A DNA stretch of 64,000 nucleotides from NCBI RefSeq assembly GCF_018873765.1, contig NC_057918.1, positions 66,382,871 to 66,446,870 on the forward strand. Reading direction: 5' to 3'. Below the pieces are notes generated by a model. That model ran no database searches. It saw only the letters and a list, made by a program, of their open reading frames with translations, and was not told where the DNA came from. The stretch comes from Telopea speciosissima. Taxonomy: Eukaryota; Streptophyta; Magnoliopsida; Proteales; Proteaceae. Shown here piece by piece: positions 2,125-63,745 of this stretch (positions within the stretch are counted from its first letter, which is position 1; the number at the start of each line of letters is the position of its first letter). The position numbers and the translations under genes are program-made.

Positions 2125-3265
2125 ACTCCATGATTAATCCTCAGTCATTATGTTCAGTTTGGGAAACCATTATTAGCTCAGATTGGCTGCCCCATGCTTA
2201 ATATATGTTGGGTACCAAATCTCCATATCGCTCTCCTTGACAACTGCGCGACATCATGACCCGCTTACCACATTAGATAATGTTCAACAAATTTTCACAC
2301 ACCTAAGAAAAAAAACACATCTCCCATACTAGAAACAACCCTAACACAGAGAAACCTAATTATTATCAGTAGAAAAAAAAGGGGGGGGGGTGGTGAGGGG
2401 AAGAAGTAGAGAGCTTGAGATCACCATAAAAGGCCTCCAACCACAGTTAGCAAAAACGGGATCGGAAAAAAAACGGAGTCACATGGTACGGGTTTTAAAC
2501 AGAGAAAGACAGCGAACGATACGGTCAAAAAAATAGAGAAACGAACAATACAGGTTTTTAAACGCTTAGATTTCAAAACAAAAACGATCAAAAATACGAC
2601 AGTATACTCATATAAATTAAGAGATTATTACCTAATATGCCTAACACTGATCAAACCTGATTACAATATAAAGTATTAACTTCATGTAGCATTTCTCATA
2701 CACTGGTATTAAGGAAAACAACCAAGCCAGCACCTCATTGAGAGATTCAACTAAGAGAAAGTTCTAGCAAAAACGAATAATCAACATACAACTTAGTACC
2801 TTTTTCTTTTATATGGGGTAAAGAGCTCCATCTATAACAAATTTCTCAAAAGTACCCTAGGAAGCTTGAATGCTTGATACGTAAATGAGCAAAATGTGAC
2901 ACAGTTTAATAAAACATAGAAGCATGTAGGGTGGGTCTCCAAGATCGTGAATGAGAATGCTTCAAGCATTATCCAATTCCACCAGAAAAAAAATATGCCT
3001 TTCTGTAATTTTTTTAAGAAAAACAAGAGACAATGAGACATACGAATACCTATTGAGTCACTAAAAGGGAAATGGCTTCAATCGCCGAAGGGAAATGGAA
3101 GGTATTGAGTCGTTGGAAGGGAAGGGAAATGGCTTCAACATGGTTTCAGGTTTCAGCAACGTAGGTATCGCCGCAGGGAAGGGAAATCGCTTCAGTCACC
3201 GGCGCCGCTGGGCATTTCCTCACTTCCTTCGTCCTCTCCTCGTCCTCTCCTCGTCCTCGTGCGGC
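2125..3265. other. Intergenic, no gene seen
   Basis: This is the upstream flank of the minus-strand PPR gene. It holds a short G run (about 2381-2390) and AT-rich sequence with repeated 'aaacgg/aaacga' words near 2450-2580. Those words resemble 'tttaaacg' words near 6230-6270, so an older element may span the region, but its ends are not clear. No convincing coding frame is visible. Confidence 0.4.
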
Positions 3266-3438: not shown

Positions 3439-3955
3439 GGTAAATCTCTGCAACCTGTTCTCCATTAAAACCCTCGAAGAGGAACGAAGAACCTCTCTGA
3501 TGAACAGTTTTTTAGAATCAATTCTCTTTTTTCCAATGAAATTTCAAAGAATTTGTGAATGAATGGCCATTTCTGATGAATCCTGCTTCACAAAAATCTC
3601 TGCAACCTGTTCTCCATTAAAAGAAAACACCAAATATTGTTAGAAATTAACAAAATTTCTTTTAAAAAATTACACTACATAAAGAAAGGAACTAAAACAT
3701 TAGAGGTCACAGGGACATATTTTAGTGAACAACTCAGTTTTCTAAGCTGAAATAGGTAATCCTATGATTTCTGTTGTTACCAAAACCCCTAAACCTTATA
3801 TGCTTGTTACTCTATAATAAGAATCCAGAGTAGTGATAGCCACAGTAGCAAAGAGTACATCTTTCATCCAGGAAGAATTCAAGCGGGTAATATCCTGTAC
3901 CAAGAACCCTAACCAGTTTTTAGGGTTTCATAACGCAAATGAGAGAGAGAGAAGA

Positions 3956-4381
3956 TGGTATGTGCAGAGTTTTCCCTCGCTTCGCTATCTTGAAGATGAG
4001 AAGAAGGTGAGAAGAAATGGATAATAAGAGAAGAATAAGGAAAGAATAGGCTGATTAGGAGGTGCCAAACCTCTTTCTCACAAGAGAAGTTAAATATAAT
4101 CACGTAATTAGCTATCTTTTAATATTAAAAAACGAGATTAAATAGATTGCATAGCAACCTTTACAGCCAAGTAGTTATCCTAATCCCACTATATATCCTA
4201 ATTAATCTCAAGTAATCCTCAAGTAGTTATCCTATTCTCACGTACAAACACTTATAATTTCTAACACTGATGATTCATAACTTCTACCACCACTCCACGA
4301 CTCAACCAACCTCTTCCACTACTAAACAAATAATATATAATAATAAATAAATTATCCCACATGCCACCTAAGCACGTTACA
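3956..4381 (-). repeat. 3' LTR of the TR-GAG element
   Basis: This 426-bp LTR begins TGTAACGTG and ends CATACCA on the minus strand. It aligns along its whole length with 5419-5831. The copies differ by scattered substitutions and by small indels, notably around 4255-4270. Confidence 0.85.
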
Positions 4382-4393
4382 ACTCTCTCCCTC

Positions 4394-5418
4394 TTAATTT
4401 CTAGTCTTGTCCTCAAGACCAAGTTCTGAAAGTTGGTGTTGCCTTGCATCAGTTTCTTCCCACGTGGCGTCCTCCTCCTCATAACAACCTTCGATCAAGA
4501 ACAATTTTTTGCATCGATGTCCTGGGACGAATCGTGCATTACAGTTGTAACAAAGTCCCTTAGCCCGCCTTTCCTGCATCTCTGTTGGTGAGATTCGACG
4601 AACGGGAAGAGATTCAATGTCAGGGGGAATGCTTTTTCTCTCAAGTGATTGGTCACGGGCCTCGTACAATCGAACCAATCCAATAGTTGCAGATAAGGTT
4701 GTGGGGCGACTAGCAAGGACGTCAGCCTTGACTTGGTTGTTTAATCCACTTACAAAAAAACTCACCTGCCGGTGTGATGGAAGATGCCCCACCTTGGAGA
4801 GGAGTTTTTCAAACTGAGATTGATAGTCTCGTACAGTACCAAGTTGCTGCAGCTTAGCGAGCTCCCCAAAAAAATCTTGAAAGGGGGTTGGTCCGAATCT
4901 AGAATGCAATCCATCACAAAAGGTGCGCCAGTCCAGCATTCTTTGATCTTGCTTAAATATGTGGAACCACATCTGTGCGTCTCCTTCCAAGTGGAAAGAA
5001 GCTAATGCCACCCTCTCCTCCTCAGGTGTTTGGTGGAAGTTGAAAAACTGCTCTGCTCTATAGGTCCAACTTGTCGTATCTTCCTCTCCATTGTAACGTG
5101 GAAAGTCCAATTTGACTAACCTTGGAGTAAAGGACTGCTGCGAGGTAGTAGTACGTGCCGGTGGGGTGAGATCGTGAGAAGGGAAAACCGAGTTCCTCCT
5201 AGATTGGGTATTAGGATGCGTGACGTCTCCCCTACCTCCAGTTCCGTTTGAGGAGCTGGTGGTGAAATCAATCTTTCAAACATCTCGCTGAGCTTGATGA
5301 GCACATGTTGTTGCGCATCAAGTTTGGTCAAGATTTGTTGCTGCCCATCATTGAGTGTACTTACATCCTCTTCGAGTTTCTCCACTCGTTGCTCCATTCC
5401 CAGGCTTTGATACCAAGC
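4394..5418 (-). pseudogene. Gag of the TR-GAG element, split in two frames
   Basis: A 238-residue frame (4394-5110) starts inside a typical gag core ('LDFPRYNGEE..') and runs through the retrotransposon gag helix region to a CCHC-like zinc knuckle with C-x2-C-x7-H-x-C spacing at about residues 187-200. The N-terminal part lies in another frame (5116 upward, with 'QQQILTKLDAQQ' coiled-coil-like sequence). A frameshift or stop near 5110-5116 therefore separates the two. It is related to Ty3/Gypsy capsid-nucleocapsid proteins. The zinc knuckle looks functional in sequence, but the protein as a whole is broken. Confidence 0.85.
5403..5415 (-). promoter_or_regulatory. Primer-binding site (initiator Met tRNA type)
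   Basis: On the minus strand, two bases after the LTR end, the sequence reads TGGTATCAAAGCC. This is complementary to the 3' end of plant initiator-methionine tRNA with one mismatch. It fixes the orientation of the TR-GAG element. Confidence 0.75.
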
Positions 5419-5831
5419 TGGTATGTGCAGAGTTTTCCCTCGCTTCACTATCTTGAAGATGAGAAGAACGTGAGAAGAAATAGATAATAAGAGAAGAATA
5501 AGGAACGAATAGGCTAATTAGGAGGTGCCAAACCTCTTTCTCACAAGAGAAGTTAAATATAATCACGTAATTAGCTACCTTTTAATATTCAAAAACAAGA
5601 TTAAATAGGTTGTATAGCAACCGTTACAGCCAAGTAGTTATCCTAATCCCACTATATATCCTAATTAATCTCAAGTAGTTATCCTCAAGTAGTTATCCTA
5701 TTCTCACGTACAAACATTTATGACTCATAACTTCTACCACCACTCCACGACTCAACCAACCTCTACCACTACTAAACAAATAAAATATCATAATAAATAA
5801 ATTATCCCACATGCCACCTAAGCACGTAACA
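5419..5831 (-). repeat. 5' LTR of the TR-GAG element
   Basis: This 413-bp partner of 3956-4381 is bordered on its outside by the 'gaaga' target duplication and on its inside by the primer-binding site. Confidence 0.85.
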
Positions 5832-8452: not shown

Positions 8453-11140
8453 CTATGTCACAGGCTTTAAGTCTATTCCCTTAGATGATTCTATATAAAT
8501 CTTTATAGGCATTGGTTTTGTGATCATGTCTGCTAAATTACAGTCCGATTTCACAAAATTGATAGCTATCGTTCCCTCATTTATATACTGTCTTACAAGA
8601 TTATGTCGTAGGCGAATATGCCTCCTTTTTCCATTATAGACTCTACTTTTAGCTTTAGCTATAGCCGCCATGCTATCACAATGAAGTGATATCGAAGGAA
8701 CAGGTTTTGGCCATAGTGGAATATCTGCCACTAAATTTCTAAGTCATTCGGCTTCAGTTCCTGCCTTTTCCATGGCAATAAATTCTGCTTCCATCGTGGA
8801 TCCTGTCCCACAGGACTGTTTAATCGATTTTTACGAAATCGCTCCACCTCCTAGTGTAAATATATATCCACTAGTTGCTAACTATTCATTTGTATCTGAT
8901 ATCCAGTTAGCATCACAGAAACCTTCTAATACAGCTGGATTTCCGCTATAGTGAAGACCATAATTAATAGTACCTTTTAGATACCTCAATAGTCTTTCAA
9001 TAGCATCACAATGTTCGTTGCTCGGGTTTTGAGTATATTGACTCAATTTTCCCACAGCCAAAGCTATATCAGGTCTAGTGCAATTCATTAGATAAGAAAC
9101 AGAACCAATTATCTGTGAATATCTTTTCTGATTCACAGGGTCACCTTGATGTCGTTGTAAATGACATCCCATCTCAAAAGGTGGTTTGACCGACGATAAG
9201 TCAAAATATCCATACTTTTTAAGCATGTTTTCTATATAGTGAGCTTGTGATAAGATAATCGCGTTCTCCTTCCTGATGATTTTGATTCCTAGAATCACAT
9301 CAGACTCTCCCATGTCCTTGGTTTCAAAATTGGACATTAAGAGATTTTTAGTATGTCTCACTATATCTAGGCTAGTGCCCATAATCAACATATCATCTAC
9401 ATAAAGTAAGATGAACACACATTTTTTATGATGAAACTTACTGTATAGACACCTCTCGGCATCATTTACAAGAAATCCATTTGATATGAGTACCATATCA
9501 AGTTTTTCATGCCACTGCTTTGGCGCTTGTTTTAGTCCATACAAGGACTTAACAAGTTTGCATACCTTATTTAATTGTCCAGGCATAGTATAACCTTCCG
9601 ATTGCCTGATGTATATCTCTTTCTCTAAATCTCCATTGAGAAATGTTGTTTTTACATCCATTTGGTGTATCACCAAATTGTAAATTGATGCAACAACCAC
9701 CATTACTCTTATAGTGGTGATTCTTGCTACTGGAGTAAAAGTATCAAAGTAATCATAGTTCTTCTTTTGCCTAAAGCCTTTGACGACTAGTCTGGCTTTA
9801 AATTTATCAAGTGATCCATCTGATTTCAATTTCTTTCGAAATATCCACTTGGTGTCTAACACTTTGGAACCTTGTGGTAAGTTTACCAATTCCCAAGTAT
9901 GATTGAATAATAATGAATCAATTTCACTTTTTATTGCCTTTTTCCAGAAGACGGCATCTCGGGACGTAACTGCCTCATTATACGTAAGAGGATCCTTATC
10001 CACAATATGGGCAACCCAATTATATGATTTGGGATCCTCGTTTATAAAATAAACAACCCAATCATTACCAAAGTGCTTAGCTTTTCTTTGCCTTTTATTT
10101 TTCCTCAAATGATTTTCATCATTATCATTAGATATAGGATCATCTTGATAAACAAAGTCATTTTCTGTACTCTTTGATACAGCATATTTGAAATTTAAAT
10201 CACCACTAACATTAGTAACACCAATTTCATTGGATTTATAAGGAAATACATCTTCAAAGAATTCTGCATCCCTAGATTCTATTATGTTGTTTTCTTCACA
10301 AACACCATCTATGATTTTGAGAACCATAAAACGATAAGCATTACTATGTGAAGCATATCCTATAAAAATGCAGTCAAAGGTTTTAGGACCAAGTTTCCTT
10401 TTCTTTGACTCAGATATTAATACTTTTGCCAAACAGCCCCATACCCGTAAATGCTTTAAGTTAGGTTTTCTATCAAACCATAACTTAAAAGGTACTAAAC
10501 CAGTTTTCTTATGAGGAATTCTATTTAAAATATAGCAAGCCGTTAGAATAGCTTCCCCCCCACATATCAAGGGTTAACCCAGAACAGATAAGGAATGAAT
10601 TCATTATTTCTTTCAATGTACGATTCTTCCTTTCGGCTATTCCATTGGATTGTGGTTGGTATGGAGCTGTAGTTTCATGTATAATACCATTCTCTTTACA
10701 AAATTTGTAAAGATTAAAATACTCTGAACCTCTATCGGTTCAAAGTCTTTTAACTTTACTCCCTAGTTGATTTTCAACTTCTCTTTTATAGGATATAAAG
10801 GCATCACTTGCTTCATCTATTGATTTCAGTAAATACAACAAAGTAAATCTTGAGTAATCATCAATAAAGGTAACAGCATAATTTTTTCCACCTCTTGATT
10901 CATATGATTTAAAATCACACAAATCACTATGAATCAAGTCAAGGCGACCACTTTGCCTCGTTACTGACTTATGTGGCCTCTTTGTCAGTTTGGCCTCTAC
11001 ACAAGTAGTACATTTAGACACCGGTGGCTTTCCAAGGCTATCAATAAGACCTAACTTGCATAATCTAGATAAATAAGGAGCACTAATATGTCCTAATCTA
11101 TTATGCCACAAATTAAAAGAGTCAACAATATAAACGGAAG
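8453..11140 (-). pseudogene. Copia pol (integrase, reverse transcriptase, RNase H), decayed
   Basis: Three frames represent one broken polyprotein. The segment 10740-11111 carries the GAG-pre-integrase zinc motif region and the integrase start ('MWHNRLGHIS', 'HSDLCDFKS', 'FIDDYSRF'). The segment 8882-10570 (562 residues) carries the integrase end and the reverse transcriptase, with the catalytic 'YVDDM' box and '[12 protein letters not shown]'. The segment 8453-8731 carries the RNase H end ('HCDSMAAIAKAKS'). A stop near 10740 and a frame change at the C-run near 10558 break the frame upstream, and a further break lies between 8731 and 8882. It encoded the replication and integration enzymes of a Copia element and cannot now make a full product. 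Confidence 0.92.
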
Positions 11141-11439
11141 AAGCACTCAGCTTATCTTTTATTACATTCAGAACACTGATTACAAAAATACCATCACTTA
11201 CATAGGGCGCATTTGGTTGCGTAAATCAACAGAACGTTATTCACTTGGATCGCAATTCTAAAAAAATTAAATTGTTTGGTTGCCTAATTCCATTAGATTA
11301 CCAGAATTACATAATTCTGATTTTATAATTAAACACAATCCATATCTGAGTTCACCTCTATAGGTAAACTCAGATATGGATGATGATTCAAAGCTTAAAT
11401 ATAAATAGTGTGGTCCAACTTTGAAAAGCCATATGGGCT

Positions 11440-13498: not shown

Positions 13499-13571
13499 GA
13501 GTCTTTAGCTCAAAAGGAAGAGCACCTGGGTTTGTTCCCAGGAGATGATGGTTCGACTCCATCATGACTCT
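13499..13571 (+). tRNA. tRNA-like cloverleaf, probably degenerate
   Basis: A 73-nt cloverleaf can be drawn. The acceptor stem (GAGTCTT with ATGACTC) pairs 6 of 7, the D stem is GCTC/GAGC, and the T arm GATGG/CCATC is perfect with loop TTCGACT. The anticodon arm CCTGG/CCAGG encloses eight bases instead of seven, so the anticodon cannot be read with confidence (UGU, UUG or GUU, depending on the slip). It is probably a tRNA pseudogene or organelle-derived fragment. Confidence 0.35.
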
Positions 13572-13727
13572 CATGTAGCAGTAGCTTCTTATTTAATTTC
13601 TTATCTTGAAGTGAACTAATTTATCCATCAGAATACGGTGAGACTTGGGGGAATCTAAACTTTTGTTTTACTTAAAAGAAAGCTATTGAGTCATACTGAG
13701 TCATACCCTCTATGTTGTCATACCTGA

Positions 13728-24600: not shown

Positions 24601-27600
24601 TATGCACTATAAATATGGATTCATCTTTATCCGCTTGGTATTTGACCGTTTAAAGCCCTATTGGTTGGCTATCTAATGTTTGCTAGTTACTATTTACAAG
24701 TTTATACTTTGTGGTACGGTCTAATGTTTCCTTCTTTTCACTAAAATCTTCTACTATTTCAAAATTTGTGGAATAGCACGAGTCCTTTTCTCTTATTGTC
24801 AAAAATTAATATTATTTCTTGCAAATAACTAGAGTTTTATTTTCTTTTCTTTGAGTGTTTTAGAATCCTCATTTCTTACTATGAAAATCTGGATTGTTAC
24901 AATTTGCTTTATATGTTAAATTATAGTTACTATTTCCAGTTGTTATATTCAAGTCTAATATTCACAATATATCACTAAAATCTTCATCTGTTCCTAATTT
25001 TGTTGAAACAAGTCTGGAATTCCTGTTGAGTTGGTGTTTCGTCAAAGGATTAATAAGATTCTTCATGTCATCTGACTTGTGGCAATTGCCTTTAAAATTT
25101 CATATTGCTTTCTCTTTTCATTTGTAGACGTTAAAAAAATAGACCAAAGATTAGATGAAAGATTTACTCACCTTCTTCCAAAAAATTAGATGAAACAAGT
25201 GCATCATTTTTTTATTTTTGGGATTCATTTGTGAACCTTTTCAGGTGAAGTGAGATCTGTCTATGTGAGGAACTTGCCCACTACCATTTCTTCTTTTGAG
25301 ATTGAGCAGGAGTTTAAGAACTTTGGCAAAATCATACCTGAGGGTGTGGCCATCAGACACCGCAAGGTTCATTCTCTTTGCTTCTTTTTCTATTGTATGC
25401 CTCCATTTGAACCTTAAAAGATATGGAACTGACATCTACCCATCTGCGAATGTATTCACATTGACATGCAGGAAATTGGTGTTTGCTATGCATTTGTTGA
25501 ATTTGAAGATGTCCATGGTGTTCAAAATGCGATCCAGGTTAGCAACTTCTCCTAAAGAAGCTGTTGTTAATCAGTTTTACATTTAAGTTCTTCTGTACAA
25601 TCTTAAATTCCCTAGTGGATGTAATGTAGAATCAGACCCCAACTAGGAACTAATTCCACAGCAGGACCACTAAGATATCAGAAGTAGCACTTTTCAGCAA
25701 TCAAACAAGGATAGCAACCACCCAATTAGATGTTCGAAAGGATCTCAGATAGCAGTAGATTTAGGACACATATTTCTCACAAGCAAATCGATAAATAAAG
25801 AAAGGTAGAAGATAGGTAGAAGGATAGATTTGGATTGAGCTTCTCACTCTCTCCCGGGCCTCTCACCCATAGGTATATCACCCTCTCAAGGCATCTCACA
25901 TCTCAACTGAATCGCACAGCTTCATGAAGAAAATTTCAAATATTCACTATCTCAATTGTTTCCAGCTAATGGCTAATACAAATATATTTAAAGAAAACCG
26001 AATACAAGTCCTAATCTATCTAGAAAATTAAATCTAACTAACCTTCTAATTTCAAATCACATATAAGTAACTAAGAAAACCAAAACAGAAACAAATCCCA
26101 ATAAGAACCTATCAAATAAAACTAATTATACCAGCTGCAATGTAGTCTAGAATGAATGTAATCAAAATAGAAAGCAAAACCAGAATCTGTCTCAAAAGAA
26201 GACTCAAATTAGGGTTTAAACTAGGGAAAGGCTAAATTAGGTTTAGGGTTTTATGGGGACTAAGGGTATGAAAGTTAGGGTTAACGTTAGGTTGAGATTT
26301 ACTAATATCAGTGATGTAATAAACTGATTCAGCAAACCAGTGGGCCAGTGGGGTATAAAATAGAATCAGCAGCAAGGTGTTGGGAGAAAATAGGTTAAAC
26401 TTAGGGTTAGGGTTTAATAGAGGGAAGTTAGAATTCCTAGGGTTTGGCAGGGCAGAATTGGACCAGCTTTGGATCGAGTTCTCCAAGGGGGCAGAGGAAG
26501 ACTTGATCAAGCTTTGGAGGGTTTTTATTGGCTTGTTTAGGCTATGCTGGTTGGGGGTGGTCTAGAAGAGAAGAAGAGAATGGCTAGGGTTTGGATCAGA
26601 TTCAAACTTACTTGTTGATGATGGCAACACCTTGATAACAGCTTGCTTGAATGTAGAACAGTATTACAGTAATGGAACAATGATAAAGAACCGAAGAACC
26701 ACTCGGGCTTCTCACCGTAAGGTGTCAATCGGATCAAACACCGATTCCATCAGCCTTGATCAAACACAAGACAAAGATCTTCTTGAAGAAGATAAGTTGC
26801 AGAGCAGCAGCTTTGAGAATTGTTTTTTCAATATTTGAATGGGGGGGGGGGGGGGAATAGGAGCCCCACGAACAACTTTTATTATAAGGCCTAAGGCCAT
26901 GTCCTAATCAGCCTAGGGAGGACATCCTAGCCGACTTAATTAACAAAACACATCCTCTCTATGACCCGTGGAGAGGAGTGGACCACTTAAGTCACATTAC
27001 CATTAAAACAATTACAAAGAAATCTACTCAATTCATTTAAATTGAACCATTGGTTCAAACTAGTTTTGGATCGGTTCAATTTAAAAGACAAAAACATGAA
27101 AAATATAGAAAACTACTAAAAAACTAAACAACTAGGAGTGGACAGATCCCCCTAGCTGACTTAATTAACAAAACTCATCCTCTCTATGACCCATGTAGAG
27201 GAGTGGACCACTTAAGTCACATGACAACTTAAGTTTTCACATGACCACTGCAACAATTACAAAGAAATCTACTCAATTCATTTAAATTGAACTATTGGTT
27301 CAAACCAGTTTTTGACCGGTTCAATTTAAAACAAAAAAGCATGAAAAATATAGAAAACTACTAAAAGACTAAACAACTACTTGGACTTCTTCTTATGAAT
27401 GTAATTCTTCAGATCCGCATTAGTTCTCCCTGGATTGAAAACATACGTCTCCGACGAATGGTTGAAGGACATGTACCGCTTATATAAATCGGGGTCGAGC
27501 CGCTTGAAGTCGTCAACGTGAATCCTAGTACTGTCATGGCGTGGGCAACCTTTCCATTTGACAAGGAAAGCATGGTAACTGTTGCCATGTTGTGTGGTCT

Positions 27601-30600
27601 TGGGAAACAGATCTTCTACGGTGCGCTGCCCCGTCTTGTCTGTGTTACGTAGACACAGGGCTGTGTGCAATGACCACCTTACCCCTGCCCGAGCGAGGGT
27701 AAGGCGGTCATTGCGCATGGCCCTATGTCTGCGTAGCACAAGCCGGACGGGCAGTTGCGCCGTAGAAGATCTGGATCTGTGGTCTTGTGCATGTCATCCA
27801 AGACCTCTTCAATAATGTCCTTAGTGGGTGATTTGAGTAGGGGCAGCCTCAGCTTGTGTTCAGAATCACCATCATCTGAGTGATGTCCCACATTGAGATG
27901 TAAATCAGCCACGTTGAAGACATTGCTTATGCTCATATCAGCAGGTAACTCGAGTACATAAGCATTAGGTCCAATACGTTTTAGTACCTTGTACCATGGT
28001 TCAAGAACTCAGTTTCGGTACAGGTTTCGCCCTGGCAAAAAACTGAGTTGGGCTGAGATCTCGGTGAGTTGGGGTAAATTTTTTTTTTGAACTTGATGGT
28101 TGGTTTCAGTGGGTTTTAGTCCTAGTTTGGTCATGAAAGTTGGTATACAGCCTATTTTTGGCCATTTAAAAACAATGACACTATCAGATTTTGAAAAATC
28201 AGAGTCCAAATAGGAGTTTCACTCAGTGGGAAATCAGGATAGACACTTATGCCAGAAACCAGGACAAACACTTACTTATGACTAACATCATTTAAGTAAA
28301 TGAAAGATATTATTCATAAATAAGCAAATACCTCTCTATTTGAATCCAATAAAAATAGTAAAAAAATCAAATTCCAAAAGGATAAATAGTCAACCCCCCA
28401 GGTCAAGAACAAAAACTGGATTTTTGGCGGTAGGTTCAATTTTCAATTTTCTAATGTTGGGGTTTTTCTCAAATCTAAAAATTTCATAAATCTTAATGAG
28501 GTAAAATATTGCTAAAAACCAAAAGTGCGGTAAAATATTCATTTGTTTTGATGCCCAAAAAAATATTTCCATTCAAAGTGATTTTGACAGCATTCGCGCA
28601 CACCAATTTAAGTTTGACCGGTACATAACTCCTTCGATATAAATCAGATTTAAGTTTGACCGGTACATAACTCCTTGAAAAGTCGAGTAACCACATGAAT
28701 ACCGTATGTATCCTCTTCGTTTACCTCAACATCATAATCATCAACATTAAAATCTCCATCTTCCAATGGATAGGGGTATAAATCAGGGTTATCTCCCTCA
28801 GAAATATCTTCCTTTTCAGCAACTACATTAAACTTCTGATGAGTGGGACAATTCTTGGCATAGTGTTCAAGCTCTTGGCAATGAAAACATTGTACCCTAT
28901 TGGAGCTGGAGGACGTGAAGGACCAGCGGTATAAGATTTGGGAGCTGTGAAATTTTTCTTGTTCTCAACAAATGGAGTACCAAATCGTCTACCAGTAGAT
29001 ACCAATAATTCTTCTGAACGAAGAGCCTCCTCAAAACAGTCCCTGACATTAGATATATCTACTATGCCAGTAGCCCTGTTAATATCAGCTCTCAACCCCA
29101 GTCGAAATCAAGATAATACCTGAATGTCATTCTCCCTAATACCGGTACGAGTAGAGAGAGTCGAACTGCTGCATATACTCAGCTACAGCCAAATTCCCTT
29201 GACGAAGGGAATTTAGATTATCCTGTAACTGTGCCCTGAAATGTCGTGGTAGATACTTCTTACTCGCATCCTCTTTCATTTCTTCCCAGTTATTGGGTGC
29301 TCTACCTTCATCTTCAAGATCTCTTTTAGTGGTTTTCCACCATTCACGGGCTGAACCCACTAGCTTAGTACATGCTAGTTTCATCTTCTTGTCTTCAGGT
29401 AAATCATACCATTCAAAATAATCATCTAAAGCTGCCAACGAATCATAAATTACCTGTGGATCATGTTTGCCATCATATTCCTTCAACTCTACCTTGACCT
29501 TTCGTGTATCATCATATCGTTGATGAGTACCAATGTAAGTGCTAAAATATGATCTCACATGTTCTTCAAATGTAGGCCGAACTGTAGGGGTTCTAGGAGA
29601 CTCTATCTTCCATGTGCCTTCGATTATTTCGGTACACTTGAGACTGTACCTGATATCTATCATCTTCAGGTGGTACATTACTATTCCTTACCAGAGTAAC
29701 CTGACATTCCTCAAGTTGCTGCAAGCTTTCACTAATGGTTTTCTGTTCAGCTGCTAATTGTTGAAATAACTCAATAACCTTAGCCATAGGATCAGGTGGT
29801 GGTAGTAATGTTCAATCTTCACCCTCTGCCATAGCTTTGATACCAATTTAATGTAGTCTTAGAATGAATGTAATCAAACTAAAAACCAAAACCAGAATCT
29901 ATCTCAAAGGATGACTCAAATTAGGGTTAAGCTAGGGAAAGGCTAAATTAGGTTCAGGGTTTTATGGGGGCTTGGGGTATGAAAGTTAGGGTTAATGTTA
30001 GGTTGACATTTACTAATATCAGTGATGTAATAAACTGATTCAGCAAACCAGTGGGGTATAAAATAGAATCGGCAGCAATGTGTTGGGAGAAAATAGGTTA
30101 AATTTAGGGTTAGGGCTTAATAGAGGGAAGTTAGAATTCCTAGGGTTTGGCTGTGCAGAATTGGACCAGCTTTGGATCGAGTTCTCCAAGGGGGCAGAGG
30201 GAGACTCGATCAAGCTTTGGAGGGTTTAATGGCTGGTTTAGGCTATGCTGGTTGGGGGTGGTCTAGAAGAGAAGAAGAGAATGGCTAGGGTTTGGATCAG
30301 ATTTAAAACTACTTATTGATGATGGTAAGTAATAATTATCAAGGCGTTGCCTGGGCGTCCAGGCTCCTTGGTCGACATGGGCGCTTGCGCCTTGGCAGGC
30401 GCCTTGATTTTTTGGACCCTCTCCAATGCCTTGCGCCTTGATAACTATGGTAACACCTTGATAACAGCTTGCTTGAATGTAGACAGTAATGGAACAATAA
30501 TAAAGAGCCAAAGAACCTCCTGGGCTTACCACCACAAGGTGTCAATCATATCAAATACCGATTCCATCAGCCTTGATCAAACACAAGACAAAGATCTTCT

Positions 30601-33600
30601 TGAAGAAAACAGATTGCAGAGCAGCAGCTTTGAGAATTGGTTTTTCAATATTTGATGGGGAAAATAGGATCCCCACGAACAACGTTTATTATAAGGCCCA
30701 AGGCCATGTGCTAATCAGCCTAGGAGTGGACAAGATCCCCCTAGCCGACTTAATTAACAAAACACATCCTCTGTATGAACCGTGGAGAGGAGTGGACCAC
30801 TTAAGTTGTCACATGACCACTAAAACAATTACAACGAAATTTACTTAATTCACTTAAATTGAAGAACCTCTGGTTCAAACCAGTTTTGGACCGGTTCAAT
30901 TTAAAACACAAAAACATGAAATTAAAATAAGTATAGAAAACTACTAAAAGACTAATCAATTACTTTGACTACTACTTCTTACGAATGTTAGTCTTCGGGT
31001 CTGCATCAAGCTGTAGGAGTGAGGTTGGACCTTGATGCATAGTCTCTGGAGGTAAGGCTGCCTAAATTATGACCCTACCAAGACCCCGCCGTGGCGGGAG
31101 CCTCGTGCACTGGGTACACCCTTTTATAATAGCTGTAGGACTCCTCCAAGTATTGACAATTGAGTCTTCAATTTGTATTCACTAGCTCACTGGCTGTGGG
31201 GTCCACTTGATCATATGAAATCTCCTCCCAATAGAGCTGAGCGATATCTCATAATGTACTGGAAATATACTGCTCGATATAATAGGAATTAGGATAGAAA
31301 ATATCTCCTTTAATAACTGATCAATCTCCTCTTTAATTCTGGAAGTAAATCCACTTAATTCTGGAATTAAATCCCTTTTTATGGTACTGGATGATACCAC
31401 TCCTTGGGGCACAAATCAATGGGTTTGAATAAACCCAGAATTTGGACCAGGTACCTGCTGGTTGATCTGCATCAGGTAGTCTTTTACTTTTCCGATAACA
31501 TTTAATTTGTCTTGGCTACTTTTTTTTTTTTGGATTCATTGTTTATACATTGGTCGAGTTGAGTTTTTAGTTGCTTTCTTGCTTTGCCAAGTGGAAAGAA
31601 TCTGTCCTATGTCAATACATATTTATTCTGCAGTAAACCACTCAACTCAACTAAGCCTTTTCTTAACTAAATGGGGTTGGCTTCACGAATTTTGTTCCGC
31701 CATTCATTCTGGAGTAAAGAGCTGACTTCATCTAATTTGGTATTTCATGGGTGGATTTTTGTACATAATGTTAGCCTCATTTGGCTCTGGTTTTCTGTAG
31801 GCATCTCCAATACAGCTTGGTGGGAGGCAAGTGCACATTGAGGAGCGGAGAGCAAACAGCAATAGCACATCTCGAGGAGGAAGTATGTTTCACGGCACTA
31901 CCCTTTACACTTTTTACTTTACATTACCTAAAACTATGATTACTGTGGAAGGATGAACCTTCATCCTTAGTGATATATCACTGATTTCTGATGAATATGG
32001 AAATCTGGGTTTCTATGCAAGCCACAAGGATCCCAAATACCCCCTCTCTCTCACATATTTGAAGTAATGAAATGTATGGTTTATTCTTCTGTAGTTTTTT
32101 TTTTTTTTTTTTGTTTGAATCTCATAACATGGTTTCTGTTGGGGCTCATATAAATGTGCCTCTACTTTACACTGTTAGACCACCATTGGTTTCTGCCCAA
32201 GGAATGCTGCTTTCTGGCATTCATGTTATAAGAATGCTGGGATGGAGTTTAGCATCAAATAAATGTTTTTTGTTATTCCCTGAGGCAGGGAACCTGGTGG
32301 GGGCTGGTAAGGAAGAGGGGAAATCTGAGAAGAAATAGTTGCAAGGGAAGAGGAAGGGATCTCACGCACAAACTCACACACAGTTGAGCATAATTTCAAT
32401 ATTCACTATTCAATCTCTGTTTTACGTTGGTTACAATGCAAGTATTTAAAGAGAAAAACCAAAGACAATCCCAAGACTCCTGGTTAGACTCTAAAATTGA
32501 AATAACTTGCAACTTGCAATTTAAACTCCAACTAACTCCTACGTATTCAACCCAACCCAAAACAAATAAAAGACTTAAATAAATAAACAACTAAATAAAT
32601 AAATTACTTCTAACCCTTAGTTGACCAAAAACCCAGGTTGGACTGGTTTCTTCTAGGTTTGGGTCTCCAAAGCCTATAATGCTGGTCCAACCAGTCAAGT
32701 GATACTGCATCAGAACCTCTCTGTGGCATTAACATTCACTGTACCTGTTGGCTGGAGAAAAATTTATATGTCAGACAGTATTATTTAGTGAAAGACTCTA
32801 TAATAGTTGCTGAAAAATTCCTGCAATTGAAACTGTTTTTCAATTCTTTGTTCACAATTGTAGTTATCACTGTTAATATATATACTGAGTTGAGTAATTC
32901 TTAGTCGGACAATATTAACAGTAATCTGCAATAGATAAAATATTAGAGAATGAGGAGGAACAGAAGAAGAGAAGAGAATATGGGGGAAGAGAAGGAATTG
33001 ATTGGGAGAAAAATTTCCCACTTGATACCCCTCACCATTGTATATATGTTTCTGTTATATAAGAAACCTACAGGAATGACCTCACTTAACATAAATTTCA
33101 GAATACCAGAGGTAGCCAGCCCATCTATATATCTCAACGTCAACAATCATGCCAAGATTAATTTAAAAGAAAGAAAAAGAAACAGGTCAAAATACTGTCG
33201 ATTTCAGCCCTTGGCCTAATTGTGTGGTTGCTGTCAACTCATCTGTGGCCTGTCATCAATGAGTACCTCTTCTGGTCACCCTTCAATTCTTTTTTTCACT
33301 CAATGAGTACCTCTTCTGGTACAAACCTTAAAATTATTGATTGTCTTGGAGTGACTATTGCTTCTTTGGTATAAATAATTGACCAATTCGCAATACTTAA
33401 GTTTATTTTAGATATGGCCAAAGTGACATTAGTTTTGAAATGAGGAACTGTTGTGCTATTCTATGGAACAAACTATTATCCCATTTTGGATTTTTAAGCT
33501 ATTTATCGAATGTTCTGAAGGTCTCGGTGCAGTTTAATTTTAGAACATCTTTTTAACTCTCGTTTGCTTTATTTATTTAGTTGTTGAATGTTCTTTAACA

Positions 33601-43290: not shown

Positions 43291-43804
43291 TATAGAGAAT
43301 CTATTCTTAGGAATTGAATTGTCAAATGGATTTTTTTATTCTTAAAATATCTCATATTGATACAATAAAAACAATTTCAATTTTTTAACAAAAAATCTAT
43401 TTGTTGATTATTTCATAAAATCAATCCGAAATTGAGATGGAAATCATACCAAATCTGGCCTTAGTATAACATACTTTTTCTTTCAATAATATAACACACT
43501 TCTTCTTTCAATAAGGTTAAAATCATATCACTTCGTATGTGTACTCGAAAAACATGTATGACACTAACATCTCTTAAGAATGAAATAATAGTAAATCACT
43601 TACAAATTAGGGAAAAATGTGTTTATCCGGGAGCATGGCTCCTGTGCTAGACACAGACCCCCGTGAACTGCTTGCCCCATCCTCCATGCACGTGCTCTCA
43701 TTGGGCCCCACACTAGTGTAAGGCCCACACTCCCAATAGAAAAAAAATATTCAATTAAAAAAGACTTTTTTTTACCCCTAGCTAAACAAAATTTTGAGAG
43801 TAAG

Positions 43805-43975
43805 GCAAAAGGCCATCAAAAGAATGATACAACTTAGCTATCACTTTGGCTATAACAAAATGCACGAGAGAGAGAGAGAGAGAGAGGCAAAAGGCCATCA
43901 AAAGAACGATACAACTTATCTATCACTTTGGCTATAACAAAATGCACGAGAGAGAAAGAGAGAGAAAGAGAGAGA
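43805..43975 (+). repeat. 82-bp tandem duplication with GA tracts
   Basis: 'gcaaaaggccatcaaaaga' starts at 43805 and 43887. Each copy ends in a GA run after 'aatgcacgag'. The period is 82 bp, with few differences. Confidence 0.88.
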
Positions 43976-44123: not shown

Positions 44124-44387
44124 TGTTACAATCATAGGCTGTGGGGTATTCTGTTAGTGGTTTAGGGTAGATGGGTAATTAGTGGTTAAGGGTAATTGGG
44201 TAATTTGATTTAGAAATGGCTTTATATAGTGTATGGATCGATTGTACAGGATATGAATAGTAAAATCTCACTTTCCACTTATTTCTTATTCTCTCCTTCT
44301 CTTATGCTTTCTCTTCCTTCTTTCTCTTCTTCTTCTTCTATCTCTGCTTCTCTTGCGTCATGGCACCACTTCATCTGATTCATAACA
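44124..44387 (+). repeat. 5' LTR of the chimeric element
   Basis: This 264-bp copy contains a TATA-like 'tttatatagtg' near 44222 and a long CT-rich stretch towards its 3' end. A sequence with 'TTGGTGCTTTCATTGAGAG', a plausible primer-binding region not of initiator-Met type, lies about 38 bp beyond the LTR end. Confidence 0.9.
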
Positions 44388-46225
44388 TTGGTCCGACCTG
44401 CCGGATCTTCTGCCTCGGTCATTACATTGGTGCTTTCATTGAGAGAAATCGGCAACCAACCATGATCGACGAACTCCGCCTCATCCCATTGTTCGCCTTT
44501 GCTCAGGAATTGAAGGACATTCGAGCCTTGTTGCTTGATTACAAGAAGAACTGCGTCAAGATGCTAAACAATATATCAGATCTACAGCTTAGTTCCGTGG
44601 CAATCAATGAACAATCAAAGGAAGTGCAGTGTCTGGTACGTGAATTAATCGACGAAGAAAATTCCAACGCCATGGCAGATCTTGAATCTCTAGCGCACGA
44701 CGATGCACATGCCAACTCCACGACTTTGGTTTCGGCACTTGTGGCATTAGATCCGGCTACCAGCGTCGTGAATGATGACCACCTTCATACCATTAGCGTC
44801 GCCCACAATCAGCATGGAGACCAGACCTTCAACGATGCAGCCATGGAGCAGAATCGGGTTGCTTCAACGATCGTGGCAGCAGCGCTCGTTCCTTCCTTCG
44901 TCGGTCAGAATCCAACCGGAACAGAGTTCATTCCTGCCATTGTATCTTTCCGAATGCACAAAGTCGATCTGGAAAACACCGGCGCAGTGCTAACTCTTCG
45001 TTTCATGGTGATGGAAGAGCACATCCAATCCATTCATGTCACTCCCTCCCCTGTTCTGCCTTGGAGGGAAATGAAGAAACAAGAAATAGAGGAGGATGAG
45101 AACCAACGGCCGCCACCGGAGCCTCCACCACTTCTGCAAGTATCCAGCTGCCAGCGTCTCAGCTGTTGGACCAGCGAAGGTCCGGACTATATGGACACCA
45201 TAGATTCCATTTTCTGTTTCTGCTCATTTCTTCTTTCTCAATTTCTATTCTCCATAAGCCCACCTTATAGAACCGAAACCCACTTTCACTCTATCTTCTT
45301 CCTACATCAGATCACCGACCCTCTTAATTTTACTTCTCTAATCCGTTTTCTCCATTTTTCTCAACCAAATCCATTTCTTTCATTTTTTCCATTTTTTCCA
45401 TCTTTTTATCATTTTCCATGTTTATTCTTCTTCAATTTCTACCCACCGATCCTCACACCATCTCAAATCCCACCAATAAACTGTTCCAAATCCATTTTCT
45501 GTTTCTTCCATTTTCTTCAAATGCATTATGTGCCGCTGTTAATCGTTATCGCAATCCAACCATGGCACCGGGGATTTGTAGCTCTTAAGATTCAAAAAGG
45601 TGCCACGGAATTTTCTCAAGCTGCCCTCGATGAGGTCGAAGTCCTCTATGCGATTGCTGATGGTGAACTCTCTAATTCAAAAGGGGTTGTTCGATTAATT
45701 GACCACTTCAAGCATGCAGGCCCAAATGGGCAGCACCCTGGTATGGTTTTTGAGTTTCTTGGTGATAGTTTACTACGGTTGAACAAATATAACTCTTATA
45801 GTGGCCTTGAATTGAACAAGCCATATGAGAGTGTCGGTGGGTCGTGTGCTGGGTTGGGGAGGCTGAATCGACAGCAACTGCTGCAAGTGCTACTGAACTC
45901 CTTGATGGAGAGTGGAAGCCCAGTGTATACTGTGGATGAATCACTAGTACCCTTGGGGTTTGGGAATTTCCAATATTTTTTGCTTGCTTTTGCTGGGATA
46001 AGTTGGGTTACAGAAGCTATGGAAATGATGTTTCTCTCTTTTGTGGGACCAACAGTTCAGGTAAAGAATGTTTTTGTTACATCTGCATTGGTATTCTTGT
46101 GTGTGAGTTTGGGAAGGATTTTTTATGCGAGAAAGTTGTTCGACGAACTTCCTCAGAAAATGTCGTGCTTTGGACAGCAATGCTGGATGGGTATGCGCAA
46201 CGTGAGGAACCAATGTTGGGTTTGA
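44360..46225 (+). CDS. 621-codon chimeric frame of the retrotransposon (unknown N-terminus, kinase piece, transporter piece)
   Basis: One uninterrupted frame starts inside the 5' LTR; a likelier start is the Met of 'MIDELRLIPLF' at about 44462. Residues about 35-275 are an unrecognised, partly helical segment ('FAQELKDIRALLLDYKKN') ending in a Pro-rich stretch. Residues about 280-400 translate what looks like a 5'-UTR. Residues about 406-488 are the SRPK lobe piece and 519-567 the transporter piece. The rest runs into PPR-derived DNA partly out of frame. The kinase piece keeps the VALK lysine but lacks the HRD and DFG motifs, so no kinase activity is expected. Whether the frame is translated is unknown. 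Confidence 0.55.
   Translation: MAPLHLIHNIGPTCRIFCLGHYIGAFIERNRQPTMIDELRLIPLFAFAQELKDIRALLLDYKKNCVKMLNNISDLQLSSVAINEQSKEVQCLVRELIDEENSNAMADLESLAHDDAHANSTTLVSALVALDPATSVVNDDHLHTISVAHNQHGDQTFNDAAMEQNRVASTIVAAALVPSFVGQNPTGTEFIPAIVSFRMHKVDLENTGAVLTLRFMVMEEHIQSIHVTPSPVLPWREMKKQEIEEDENQRPPPEPPPLLQVSSCQRLSCWTSEGPDYMDTIDSIFCFCSFLLSQFLFSISPPYRTETHFHSIFFLHQITDPLNFTSLIRFLHFSQPNPFLSFFPFFPSFYHFPCLFFFNFYPPILTPSQIPPINCSKSIFCFFHFLQMHYVPLLIVIAIQPWHRGFVALKIQKGATEFSQAALDEVEVLYAIADGELSNSKGVVRLIDHFKHAGPNGQHPGMVFEFLGDSLLRLNKYNSYSGLELNKPYESVGGSCAGLGRLNRQQLLQVLLNSLMESGSPVYTVDESLVPLGFGNFQYFLLAFAGISWVTEAMEMMFLSFVGPTVQVKNVFVTSALVFLCVSLGRIFYARKLFDELPQKMSCFGQQCWMGMRNVRNQCWV
45577..45825 (+). pseudogene. Captured SRPK (SR-protein kinase) N-lobe fragment
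   Basis: The frame reads 'FVALKIQKGATEFSQAALDE', 'VEVLYAIADGELSNSKGVVR' and 'LIDHFKHAGPNGQHPGMVFE', then 'FLGDSLLRLNKYNSYSGLEL'. This matches the ATP-site lysine, helix C and hinge regions of plant SRPK kinases, which phosphorylate SR splicing factors. The catalytic loop and everything after it are absent. No introns remain in the piece, but it may equal a single exon. Confidence 0.88.
45914..46060 (+). pseudogene. Captured N-terminus of an organic cation/carnitine-type MFS transporter
   Basis: The frame reads 'GSPVYTVDESLVPLGFGNFQ' and then 'YFLLAFAGISWVTEAMEMMF', ending 'LSFVGPTVQ'. This is the start of plant organic cation/carnitine transporter 7-like (NiaP/SV2-related) proteins, with the first transmembrane helix and the 'EAMEMM' motif. 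Homology stops sharply at a 'CAG|gta' boundary, where PPR-like sequence begins. It is a fragment without transport function. Confidence 0.8.
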
Positions 46226-46690
46226 TGGTGTTTACGGAGATGGTTGGTGAAGGTATTCAGCTTGATGTTGTGGTTATGGTTAGATTGCTTTTGATTTGTA
46301 GTCAAAGGGGTTGGCTGAGACATGGTAAGAATGTGCACGAGTGGAATATTCGGAGGTGTCTGCGGCTGGGATTGTATTTAGGAAGAGATGTGGTTTCGTG
46401 GGCTGCATTGATATTGGGGTGTGGGATGAATGGAAGTGTCAATGTTGCTTTGGATCTCTTTTATCTGATGTGCAGGGAGGGATTGGTTCCCACTGAGATT
46501 ACTTTTGTTGGGATCTTGTATGCTTGCAGTTATTGTGGAAGGGTGGATCAGGGATTTGAGTACTTCAAGAGGATGAGGGAAGTATATGGGATTATGGTGG
46601 CATTGTTGATTTGCTTACTAGGCCAGCGTGGGTACAAGAAGCACATGATTTTATTCAAAATGTGCCACTGGATTCCAATTGCATGTTTAT
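46061..46690 (+). pseudogene. Captured PPR-protein fragment, frameshifted and internally deleted
   Basis: In successive frames the sequence reads 'KNVFVTSALV', 'GRIFYARKLFDELPQ', 'NVVLWTAMLDGYAQREEPML', 'RDVVSWAALILGCGMNGSVN', 'VPTEITFVGILYACSYCGRV' and 'EAHDFIQNVPLDSN'. These are PLS-type PPR motifs. A deletion appears between 'LGLYLG' and 'RDVVSW', and frame changes occur near 46160 and 46590. It is not a copy of the PPR gene at 106-2124. Confidence 0.88.
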
Positions 46691-47070
46691 TAGATATGTT
46701 CTGGTACCTCACAAGATCAAGGATGCAGAAAGGTCTCAAGATCCTAAGGAACAGGCTGCAAATGAAATGGCTTCATTAATTAGAGATCCCAATATATCAA
46801 CTTCATTCCATTTGAAATTTCAGCAACTTTCCCGACCGCCACTTGTTTGTGATAATGTTGGACTGAACGAGCTCCTTCAGCCTTTTGATCCAGGTGGATA
46901 CCACAACCCCATGAATGCCACCACCCAGCTGCTGATTATGATATGTTTTGTGTTTGATCCAAGGATCGATGTACAAGGTTTACCACAGAACCTTGAGGAG
47001 TTTCAGCTCCAGTTGTCCATGGATTCTCAGTAGAACCTTGAGGCAAGGTTCTGTCCGAAGGGGATGATAA
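46690..47070 (+). other. 3' internal region of the chimeric element
   Basis: A frame (46611-47033) continues through 'DPKEQAANEMASLIRDPNIS' and 'SRPPLVCDNVGLNELLQPFD', which may be a further captured fragment that I do not recognise. It ends 'LPQNLEEFQLQLSMDSQ', reminiscent of retrotransposon polyprotein ends, just before the polypurine tract. Confidence 0.4.
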
Positions 47071-47334
47071 TGTTACAATCATAGGCTGTGGGGTACTCTG
47101 TTAGTGGTTAAGGGTAGATGGATAATTAGTGGTTAAGGGTAATTGGGTAATTTGATTGAGAAATGGCTTTATATAGTGTATGGATCGATTGTAAAGGATA
47201 TGAATAGTAAAATCTCACTTTCCACTTATTTCTTATTCTCTCCTTCTCTTATGCTTTCTCTTCCTTCTTTGTCTTCTTCTTCTTCTATCTCTGCTTCTCT
47301 TGCGTCATCGCACCACTTCATCTGATTCATAACA
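47071..47334 (+). repeat. 3' LTR of the chimeric element
   Basis: This is the 264-bp partner of 44124-44387, identical in length and about 97% identical by eye. Confidence 0.9.
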
Positions 47335-47475: not shown

Positions 47476-47664
47476 CAATTTGGATCCTCTACTGCCCAGC
47501 TGCCCGGTAGGACCGTGCTCCCTAGACACGACAAGGCGTGCAATGACCGCCTTATCTCTGCTCAAGCGTCTTGTCCGAGTGAGGGTAAGGCGGTTATTGC
47601 GCACCTCACCATGTCTGGGCAGCACGGTTCTACCGGACAGCTCGACAATAGAAGATCTGAATCT
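47476..47664. mobile_element. Mutator-type MITE, 189 bp, 9-bp target duplication
   Basis: Perfect 'gtaaaattg' duplications lie at 47467-47475 and 47665-47673. The arms and the centre ('caatgaccgccttat..', 'gagggtaaggcggt') match the element at 27602-27777, so both belong to one family. Confidence 0.88.
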
Positions 47665-62839: not shown

Positions 62840-63084
62840 TTTGCCACGCTTTCTCCTTTTGATGAACTGGTCTTGTAACCGAGCATAGCTTCTTCATAGT
62901 ATTTGTAAATCTCATTGTGTACTTGTACTTGAAAGTTGAAATTGCTTTGTAAGCTTGTACTTGAATCATTACATACTTGTACTAGTAGACCGAAATAATA
63001 ATAAAAGAACTTTGTCTTTGTACACTTTGCCATGCATTCTTCATCTTTGCTATAGCTTGGCCTTATATTTTTACTTCACGTTTA

Positions 63085-63745
63085 CCTCTGTGGTCGGTTG
63101 ACCATTGCCTTAGATTTGGGGAAATGCCCCTATGGTGCAACTCACCATTATGGTCGGGTGACCATCATCTTTGGTTGGGAAAACGCCCCTATGGTGCAAC
63201 TCACCATTATGGTCGGGTGACCATCATCTTTGATTGGGGAAACGCCCCTATGGTGCAACTCACCATTTATGGTCTGGTGACCATTATCTTTGATTGGGGA
63301 AATGCCCCTATGGTGCAAGTCATCATTATGGTCGGGTGACCATCATTTTCTTTGGGGAAATGCCCCTATGGTGCAACTCACCATTATGGTCGGGTGATCA
63401 TCATTTTCTTTGGAGAAACGCCCCTATGGTGTAACTCATCATTATGGTCGGGTGACCATCATTCTCTTTGGGGAAACGCCCCTATGGTGCAACTCACCAT
63501 TATGGTCGAGTGACCATCATCTTTGGTTGGAGAAACGCCCCTATGGTGCAACTTACCATTATAGTCGGGTGACCATCATCTTTGGTTAGGGAAACGCCCC
63601 TATGGTGCAACTCACCATTATGGTCGGGTGACCATCATCTTTGGTTGGGAAAACGCCCCTATGGTGTAATTCACCATTATGGTTGGGTGACCATCATTTT
63701 CTTTGGGGAAACGCCCCTATGGTGCAACTCATCATTATGTTGGTT
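63085..63745 (+). repeat. ~59-bp minisatellite, about 11 copies
   Basis: The unit contains 'cgcccctatggtgcaactca' then 'ccattatggtcgggtgacca' and 'tcatctttggttgggaaa'. It recurs with spacing of 57-60 bp, from a degenerate first copy at about 63085 to about 63745, with light divergence and small length variation. It is direct-repeat DNA without unique spacers. Confidence 0.95.

Follow-up and report, generated by a model that had tools for sequence, protein, structure and literature searches.

Our analysis of a 64,000-nucleotide stretch of the Telopea speciosissima genome (C3:66382871-66446870; hereafter the window) indicates, with a probability that we put at roughly 0.88, that positions 44124-47334 of the window are a chimeric, non-autonomous long terminal repeat (LTR) retrotransposon carrying captured pieces of host genes. 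The assembly comprises 822.9 Mb in 1287 contigs, to which the C-labels refer. As judged by sequence comparison, the cargo consists of six pieces that match six host loci on five chromosomes: those of an SRPK, a bHLH factor, organic cation transporter 7 (OCT), two PPR genes, and one unnamed gene. The parts of the element are as follows, in window coordinates.

44124..44387, + strand: 5' LTR, 264 bp, TG...CA; Kimura two-parameter (K2P) distance to the 3' LTR 0.027
44264..46222, + strand: 653-codon open frame, stop to stop; leader, SRPK, bHLH, OCT, and start of PPR-A, in donor frames
44389..44406, + strand: primer binding site (PBS) 1, tRNA-Tyr; 18/18 complementary to the tRNA-Tyr 3' end; at +1
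44428..44445, + strand: second, downstream PBS, tRNA-Thr; 18/18 to the presumed tRNA-Thr 3' end
44462..45106, + strand: 5' part of the element's own open reading frame (ORF); starts MIDELRL...
45107..45571, + strand: pyrimidine-rich leader; parts common to relatives without the SRPK piece
45572..45820, + strand: SRPK piece; first base is the start of donor exon 2
45821..45903, + strand: bHLH transcription factor piece, in the donor frame; matched part 45847-45901, the preceding 26 bp loosely aligned
45904..46066, + strand: organic cation/carnitine transporter 7 N terminus; starts at, or 1 base before, the donor ATG
46067..46484, + strand: PPR-A piece; matching gene at C2:43.06 Mb
46474..46679, + strand: PPR-B piece, from a different PPR gene; 85% to C2:77309125
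46667..46787, + strand: sixth host piece, gene unnamed; 84.6% to C3:4954150-4954700
46788..47057, + strand: 3' part of the element; partly common to Telopea protein P0001
47058..47070, + strand: polypurine tract (PPT), by sequence; purine run adjoining the 3' LTR
47071..47334, + strand: 3' LTR, 264 bp

Structure and classification of the element

An earlier note on this DNA had described near-identical 264-bp LTRs and a polypurine tract. The LTRs at 44124-44387 and 47071-47334 are indeed direct repeats, with 7 mismatches and TG...CA ends, and the purine run lies at 47058-47070. That note had also claimed an interior without replication genes, and this was confirmed: the three longest forward frames, and the pieces of them that were scanned, contain no retroelement domain recognized by Pfam, and by the same scan the element, in which neither reverse transcriptase, integrase, protease, nor RNase H was recognized, is non-autonomous; there is no space for pol because the element is only 3.2 kb long. 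The earlier note would have abandoned the LTR reading if no copies with the same borders existed, and further copies do share them. Paired TG...CA LTRs, a PBS and a PPT in place, and dispersed copies with common borders thus place the element among LTR retrotransposons. It is not a terminal-repeat retrotransposon in miniature (TRIM), a class that is very short and non-coding with short LTRs, at 3.2 kb and with a 653-codon frame. Capture is of the Bs1 type, with several host genes, represented by exons only, between LTRs; "exons only" was tested solely by the pieces near introns, namely, SRPK, OCT, and an NRAMP piece in the related locus L011.

The 5' ORF part (44462-45106), which has no match in Pfam, presumably corresponds to the N terminus of gag; ORF starts judged by eye to resemble its beginning occur in L013, L015, L026, L027, and L028. 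For the 3' tail of P0001, no protein relative was found among 6 candidates beyond P0001 itself.

Host gene pieces and their matching loci

The earlier note had named three captured genes (SRPK, transporter, and PPR). All three are present, and the count was too low: PPR-B, the bHLH piece, and the sixth piece have to be added. Its proposal of a genome-wide DNA search for donor genes and further copies proved productive on both counts, and the protein comparison upheld its SRPK and OCT identities. The possibility that the fragments belong to one contiguous host locus, which it had offered as a refutation, was rejected, as the matching genes lie apart in the genome.

At the protein level, the SRPK piece matches a Telopea SRSF kinase (64% identity across 132 aa, in an alignment that extends past the piece), and its DNA is 90% identical to the gene at C4:8046202. 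A genome search with this piece gave 10 matches, consisting of 7 elements, the C4:8046202 gene, a paralogue (83%), and one short match. Along 54 aa, the identity of the OCT piece to the Telopea and Macadamia organic cation/carnitine transporter 7 is 78-80%, and its DNA identity to the C5:68731103 gene, from the ATG of that gene, is 91%; the OCT stretch had 9 matches (the 7 SRPK-bearing elements, the C5:68731103 OCT gene, and, over the part ahead of OCT, the C1:43441776 bHLH gene). Pfam alone recognized neither the SRPK nor the OCT piece; PDB sequences recognized the former (3e-13) and gave no match for the latter. The bHLH piece matches C1:43441776 at 48/55 positions, and an HLH domain is present in that gene.

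PPR-A is recognized by Pfam as PPR (2e-15) and is 89% identical in DNA to an intact 512-codon PPR frame at C2:43057000-43065000; it has a 76-bp internal deletion near 46383 and, relative to copy L017, a 1-nt frameshift near 46158. The switch from PPR-A to PPR-B falls within a PPR stretch. A search with 46470-46780 gave 17 matches, 9 of them in element copies; the PPR-B part is matched at 80-85% by six other loci, and two (C3:4954321 and C11:45551008) match from 46667 on. Reading of two of the eight loci outside elements showed a PPR gene with PPR repeats and an E motif at C2:77309125 and an open frame without a name at C3:4954321. The sixth piece has neither a Pfam nor a PDB match. The matching host loci may be the donors or close relatives of the donors, especially in the case of PPR-B, bHLH, and the sixth piece.

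Piece edges and source of the captured DNA

The SRPK piece and donor exon 2 start at the same base, which follows TTTTGCAG in the gene; in 4 of 124 proteins compared (P0033, P0054, P0110, and P0116), a sequence change was seen by eye just ahead of the exon 2 start. The OCT piece starts at, or one base ahead of, the ATG directly after TCTTGCAG, the donor splice acceptor. The introns immediately upstream of both pieces are missing from the element. The bHLH and PPR-A pieces start within open frames. A retained OCT intron at the OCT/PPR join was considered but discarded, since the donor lacks a GT at that point and the bases agree with the PPR-A join.

The sister type L011 carries PPR2 (92% to C1:22656980), an RBR ligase piece (91% to C4:26845296; IBR domain), and an NRAMP-type transporter piece that matches C4:10487600-10488250 (PDB match, 1.5e-15; Pfam Nramp, 26.2 bits, under the cutoff of 29.8). 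The RBR and NRAMP pieces start within exons. The NRAMP piece joins two exon parts that are separated by a GT-AG intron in the C4:10487600-10488250 gene, and because this intron was cleanly removed, spliced RNA was the source of that capture. The next NRAMP intron was lost along with exon sequence, between two GGTTC words.

The clan, its ages, and exchange of cargo

A whole-element genome search, in which 40 of 196 candidates were scored, gave at least 83 matches, among them the window itself, near-full copies on C2 and C11 at 96%, and many partial ones; many of the relatives are mosaics. The window copy, L009, and L010 have one common structure and no flanks in common. Clan members are small (2.8-3.6 kb). 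An LTR pair is present in 15 of the 20 loci examined (L009-L028) and absent from L012, L015, L018, L022, and L023, the last of which is the PPR-A gene and not an element. Both ends were resolved in 13 members, window included (L009 and L013 are truncated, and L024 is unresolved), and 9 of the 13 have exact 5-bp target-site duplications (TSDs); that of L026 agrees at 4/5 positions, and that of L025 is off by one. LTR divergence ranges from 0 in L021, the youngest member, whose LTRs are identical across 301 bp, to 0.039 in L010, with 0.027 in the window. At the rice substitution rate of 1.3e-8 per site and year, the window copy, which is decaying, is about 1 million years old. The clan is probably of Ty3/gypsy descent; in the members read, gag-like remnants (L016 and L024) were observed, and no pol. 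PPR pieces are also carried by L020 and L027, weaker PPR matches were observed in L025 and L028, and L016 has a DUF740 piece.

Most of the 5' part (1-580) and the 3' part (2090-3211) of the element is common to L011, L013, L014, and L015, and the middle differs. In L016-L019, the SRPK-bHLH-OCT stretch is 93.7-95.9% identical to that of the window (490-495 bp), whereas LTR identity to the window is 55.5% in L016, 58.4% in L017, and 66.1% in L019 (L018 has no complete LTR pair). This high cargo identity against low LTR identity shows that cargo moved between LTR lineages, and the gap would be hard to account for without recombination, most likely by template switching. L017, which carries an additional P-class PPR piece, is the locus of an annotated protein; this protein, P0001 (437 aa), which the database lists as a Telopea PPR protein, represents the fused cargo of L017.

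Tandem primer binding sites

The tRNA-Tyr PBS is the sole match at up to 4 mismatches within the window. The host genome has 15 exact copies of the 22-nt tRNA-Tyr 3' end versus 0 for the reversed control, and both of the two loci read are intron-bearing tRNA-Tyr genes (an intron-free mode detected none). The presumed tRNA-Thr sequence used for comparison was accepted by ARAGORN as a valid tRNA-Thr.

PBSs were surveyed in 15 members; outside this survey, L009, L012, and L015 have tRNA-Tyr-like sites with 3, 0, and 1 mismatches, respectively. A tRNA-Tyr site with 0-2 mismatches lies at +1 in 7 of the 15 (window, L010, L011, L013, L014, L021, and L028), and L025 and L026 have such a site with 4 mismatches. 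A tRNA-Thr site (0-1 mismatches) lies downstream of the tRNA-Tyr site in these 9 of the 15, 40-50 nt beyond the end of the LTR, and in 5 others (L016, L017, L019, L020, and L027; 0-3 mismatches) the tRNA-Thr site adjoins the LTR itself. L024 has neither site. The position of the LTR end therefore varies with which PBS adjoins it. The sister elements L020 and L021, with cargo 96% identical, alone make a direct case for a primer switch within one lineage. L020 has 335-bp LTRs (TSD, CTTTC) with a tRNA-Tyr site (one mismatch) inside both, which only this member retains, and its tRNA-Thr site adjoins the LTR; in L021, the 301-bp LTRs (TSD, CCATC) end at the tRNA-Tyr site, and the tRNA-Thr site is kept downstream. 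We consider it likely that the clan has two working tandem PBSs, that the priming tRNA would set the 3' end of the LTR so that shorter and longer LTRs alternate, and that cargo has been traded as well. No tRNA-Tyr pattern was found among viral contigs. No tandem or dual PBS of this kind was found in the literature searched, which is no proof of its absence in print.

Fused frame, origin of the cargo, and alternative explanations

The 653 codons of the window frame compare with a maximum of 197 in 60 base shuffles and 99 on the reverse strand. The longest frames are 822 codons in L011, 768 in L024, 588 in L027, and 571 in L009, and are short in L021 (270), L028 (254), and L019 (182); across members, the longest reverse-strand frames have 74-266 codons, and the maximum in 60 base shuffles of each element is 240. 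The frame could represent a newly arisen host gene, or a gene of the element maintained by selection, as might be suggested by its openness across three joins, the long frames of L011 and L024, the annotation of a Telopea protein (P0001) from a relative, and the pS of 0.20-0.25 against a pN of 0.06-0.08 between the SRPK piece and its donor, although the constrained donor branch is part of this comparison. Among the seven copies of the SRPK piece, however, there are 0-4 synonymous versus 2-9 nonsynonymous differences, stop codons interrupt the SRPK or OCT piece in three of the seven (L010, L017, and L019), and the youngest member, L021, has no frame longer than 270 codons. A requirement for the open frame is not demonstrated, because captured coding pieces start out open. 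With nonsynonymous change not reduced between copies, selection on the frame is very unlikely, the window copy most likely makes no selected protein, and the useful chimeric protein envisaged by the earlier note finds no support.

Two solo LTRs, or a recombined pair, might instead surround unrelated genomic DNA, so that the interior would not be a transposed unit. The missing TSD of the window copy and the 2.7% LTR divergence would suit such an arrangement, but with two same-structure copies at 96%, flanks differing among all three, and PBS and PPT both in place, there is hardly any room for it. Gathering of the pieces from DNA, through a Pack-MULE, a Helitron, or the filling of breaks during repair, with LTRs enclosing them later, would explain the short similarities at several joins; the clean excision of the NRAMP intron and the missing introns directly ahead of the SRPK and OCT pieces speak against it, and we regard it as improbable. 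Capture started by splicing of element read-through RNA into downstream host exons, a route proposed for retroviral oncogenes, is a possibility that we hold tentatively. It would account for the exon-start edges of the SRPK and OCT pieces, but the upstream side has no demonstrated splice donor, and as the bHLH, PPR-A, RBR, and NRAMP pieces start inside exons or open frames, splicing as the origin of all captures was rejected.

For the chimeric retrotransposon, we favor a scheme in which host mRNAs would be packaged together with element RNA, and reverse transcriptase would switch template at short similarities, building up the cargo stepwise. The two pieces with exon-start edges were perhaps joined first by splicing of read-through RNA. 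An autonomous relative would provide Gag and Pol in trans. The joined cargo has spread by transposition and passed between LTR lineages.

Several observations weigh against this interpretation. No TSD flanks the window copy (GATAA versus AGATC) or L010; the window copy is filed as an LTR retrotransposon in spite of this because there are copies of the same structure. No autonomous partner was found, and the gag-like remnants in L016 and L024 match a gag in the window at 32-34% and are not recognized by Pfam. Of the four window pieces with an examined 5' edge, only two (SRPK and OCT) have exon-start edges, and the others (bHLH and PPR-A) do not. The PPR-A part that follows the SRPK-bHLH-OCT stretch is less similar to the window (88% in L016, 91% in L017, and 83% in L019).

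Surroundings of the element

Shortly upstream of the element is an 82-bp tandem duplication (43803-43966), and 143 bp downstream is a 77-nt inverted repeat (47478-47662; 78% complementary, 31-nt loop). Elsewhere in the window, 263-bp direct repeats (95%), 1463 bp apart, surround a Ty3-type gag frame (Ty3_capsid and Retrotrans_gag) at 3952-5677, which looks like a gag-only LTR element. Pieces of a Ty1/copia polyprotein (RVT_2) lie on the minus strand at 8882-11225. Several direct repeats about 3.7 kb apart, with a minus-strand gag frame, at 26213-30954 are perhaps a decayed gypsy element. A tRNA gene with an odd anticodon call is located at 13499-13572; Rfam at the gathering threshold gave one tRNA. 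A tandem repeat with a spacing of about 59 bp occupies 63056-63737.

Significance and comparison with known systems

Shared joins, matching genes in one genome, and a range of ages make the order and chemistry of gene capture by LTR elements readable in the many members of this clan: the RNA source, joins at short similarities, two exon-start edges, and the trading of completed cargo across lineages. If the proposal is true, the tandem sites would offer a natural example of how the choice of primer alters retroelement ends. In practical terms, such elements end up annotated as host genes, as did P0001 ("PPR protein").

Maize Bs1, with three host genes, was among the first examples of capture (PMC13317346), and the earlier note was right to choose it as the parallel: both are LTR elements with pieces of at least three host genes, a hybrid frame, and exons only (PMC13317346; PMC4717578). 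Unlike Bs1, the Telopea element has six pieces, sister types with other cargo, cargo exchange across LTR lineages, and a tandem PBS. The soybean TRIM GmaRetroS15 is likewise a small LTR element with three gene pieces, including a kinase, intronless and copied after capture (PMC4717578); the gene-bearing TRIMs of that study have 1.2-1.4 kb and TSDs (PMC4717578), whereas the Telopea element has 3.2 kb, a long fused frame, and a window copy without a TSD. In published surveys, gene fragments are reported in 425 maize LTR elements, and captured genes number 672 in rice and 1343 in sorghum, PPR and kinase domains being among the commonest. In contrast to the Telopea element, none of the elements in the maize survey was identified as holding fragments from more than one nuclear gene (PMC2774510). 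PBS types in plants have been described (PMC6317226). Mouse VL30 is similar in that one family has PBSs for different tRNAs and a variable LTR length (PMC4859993), but a tandem PBS pair with a shifting LTR end is not mentioned for VL30 in the excerpt of that account (PMC4859993). Gene capture by LTR elements is thus already known from Bs1 and GmaRetroS15, and what is new here is a cargo-swapping clan with a double primer site.

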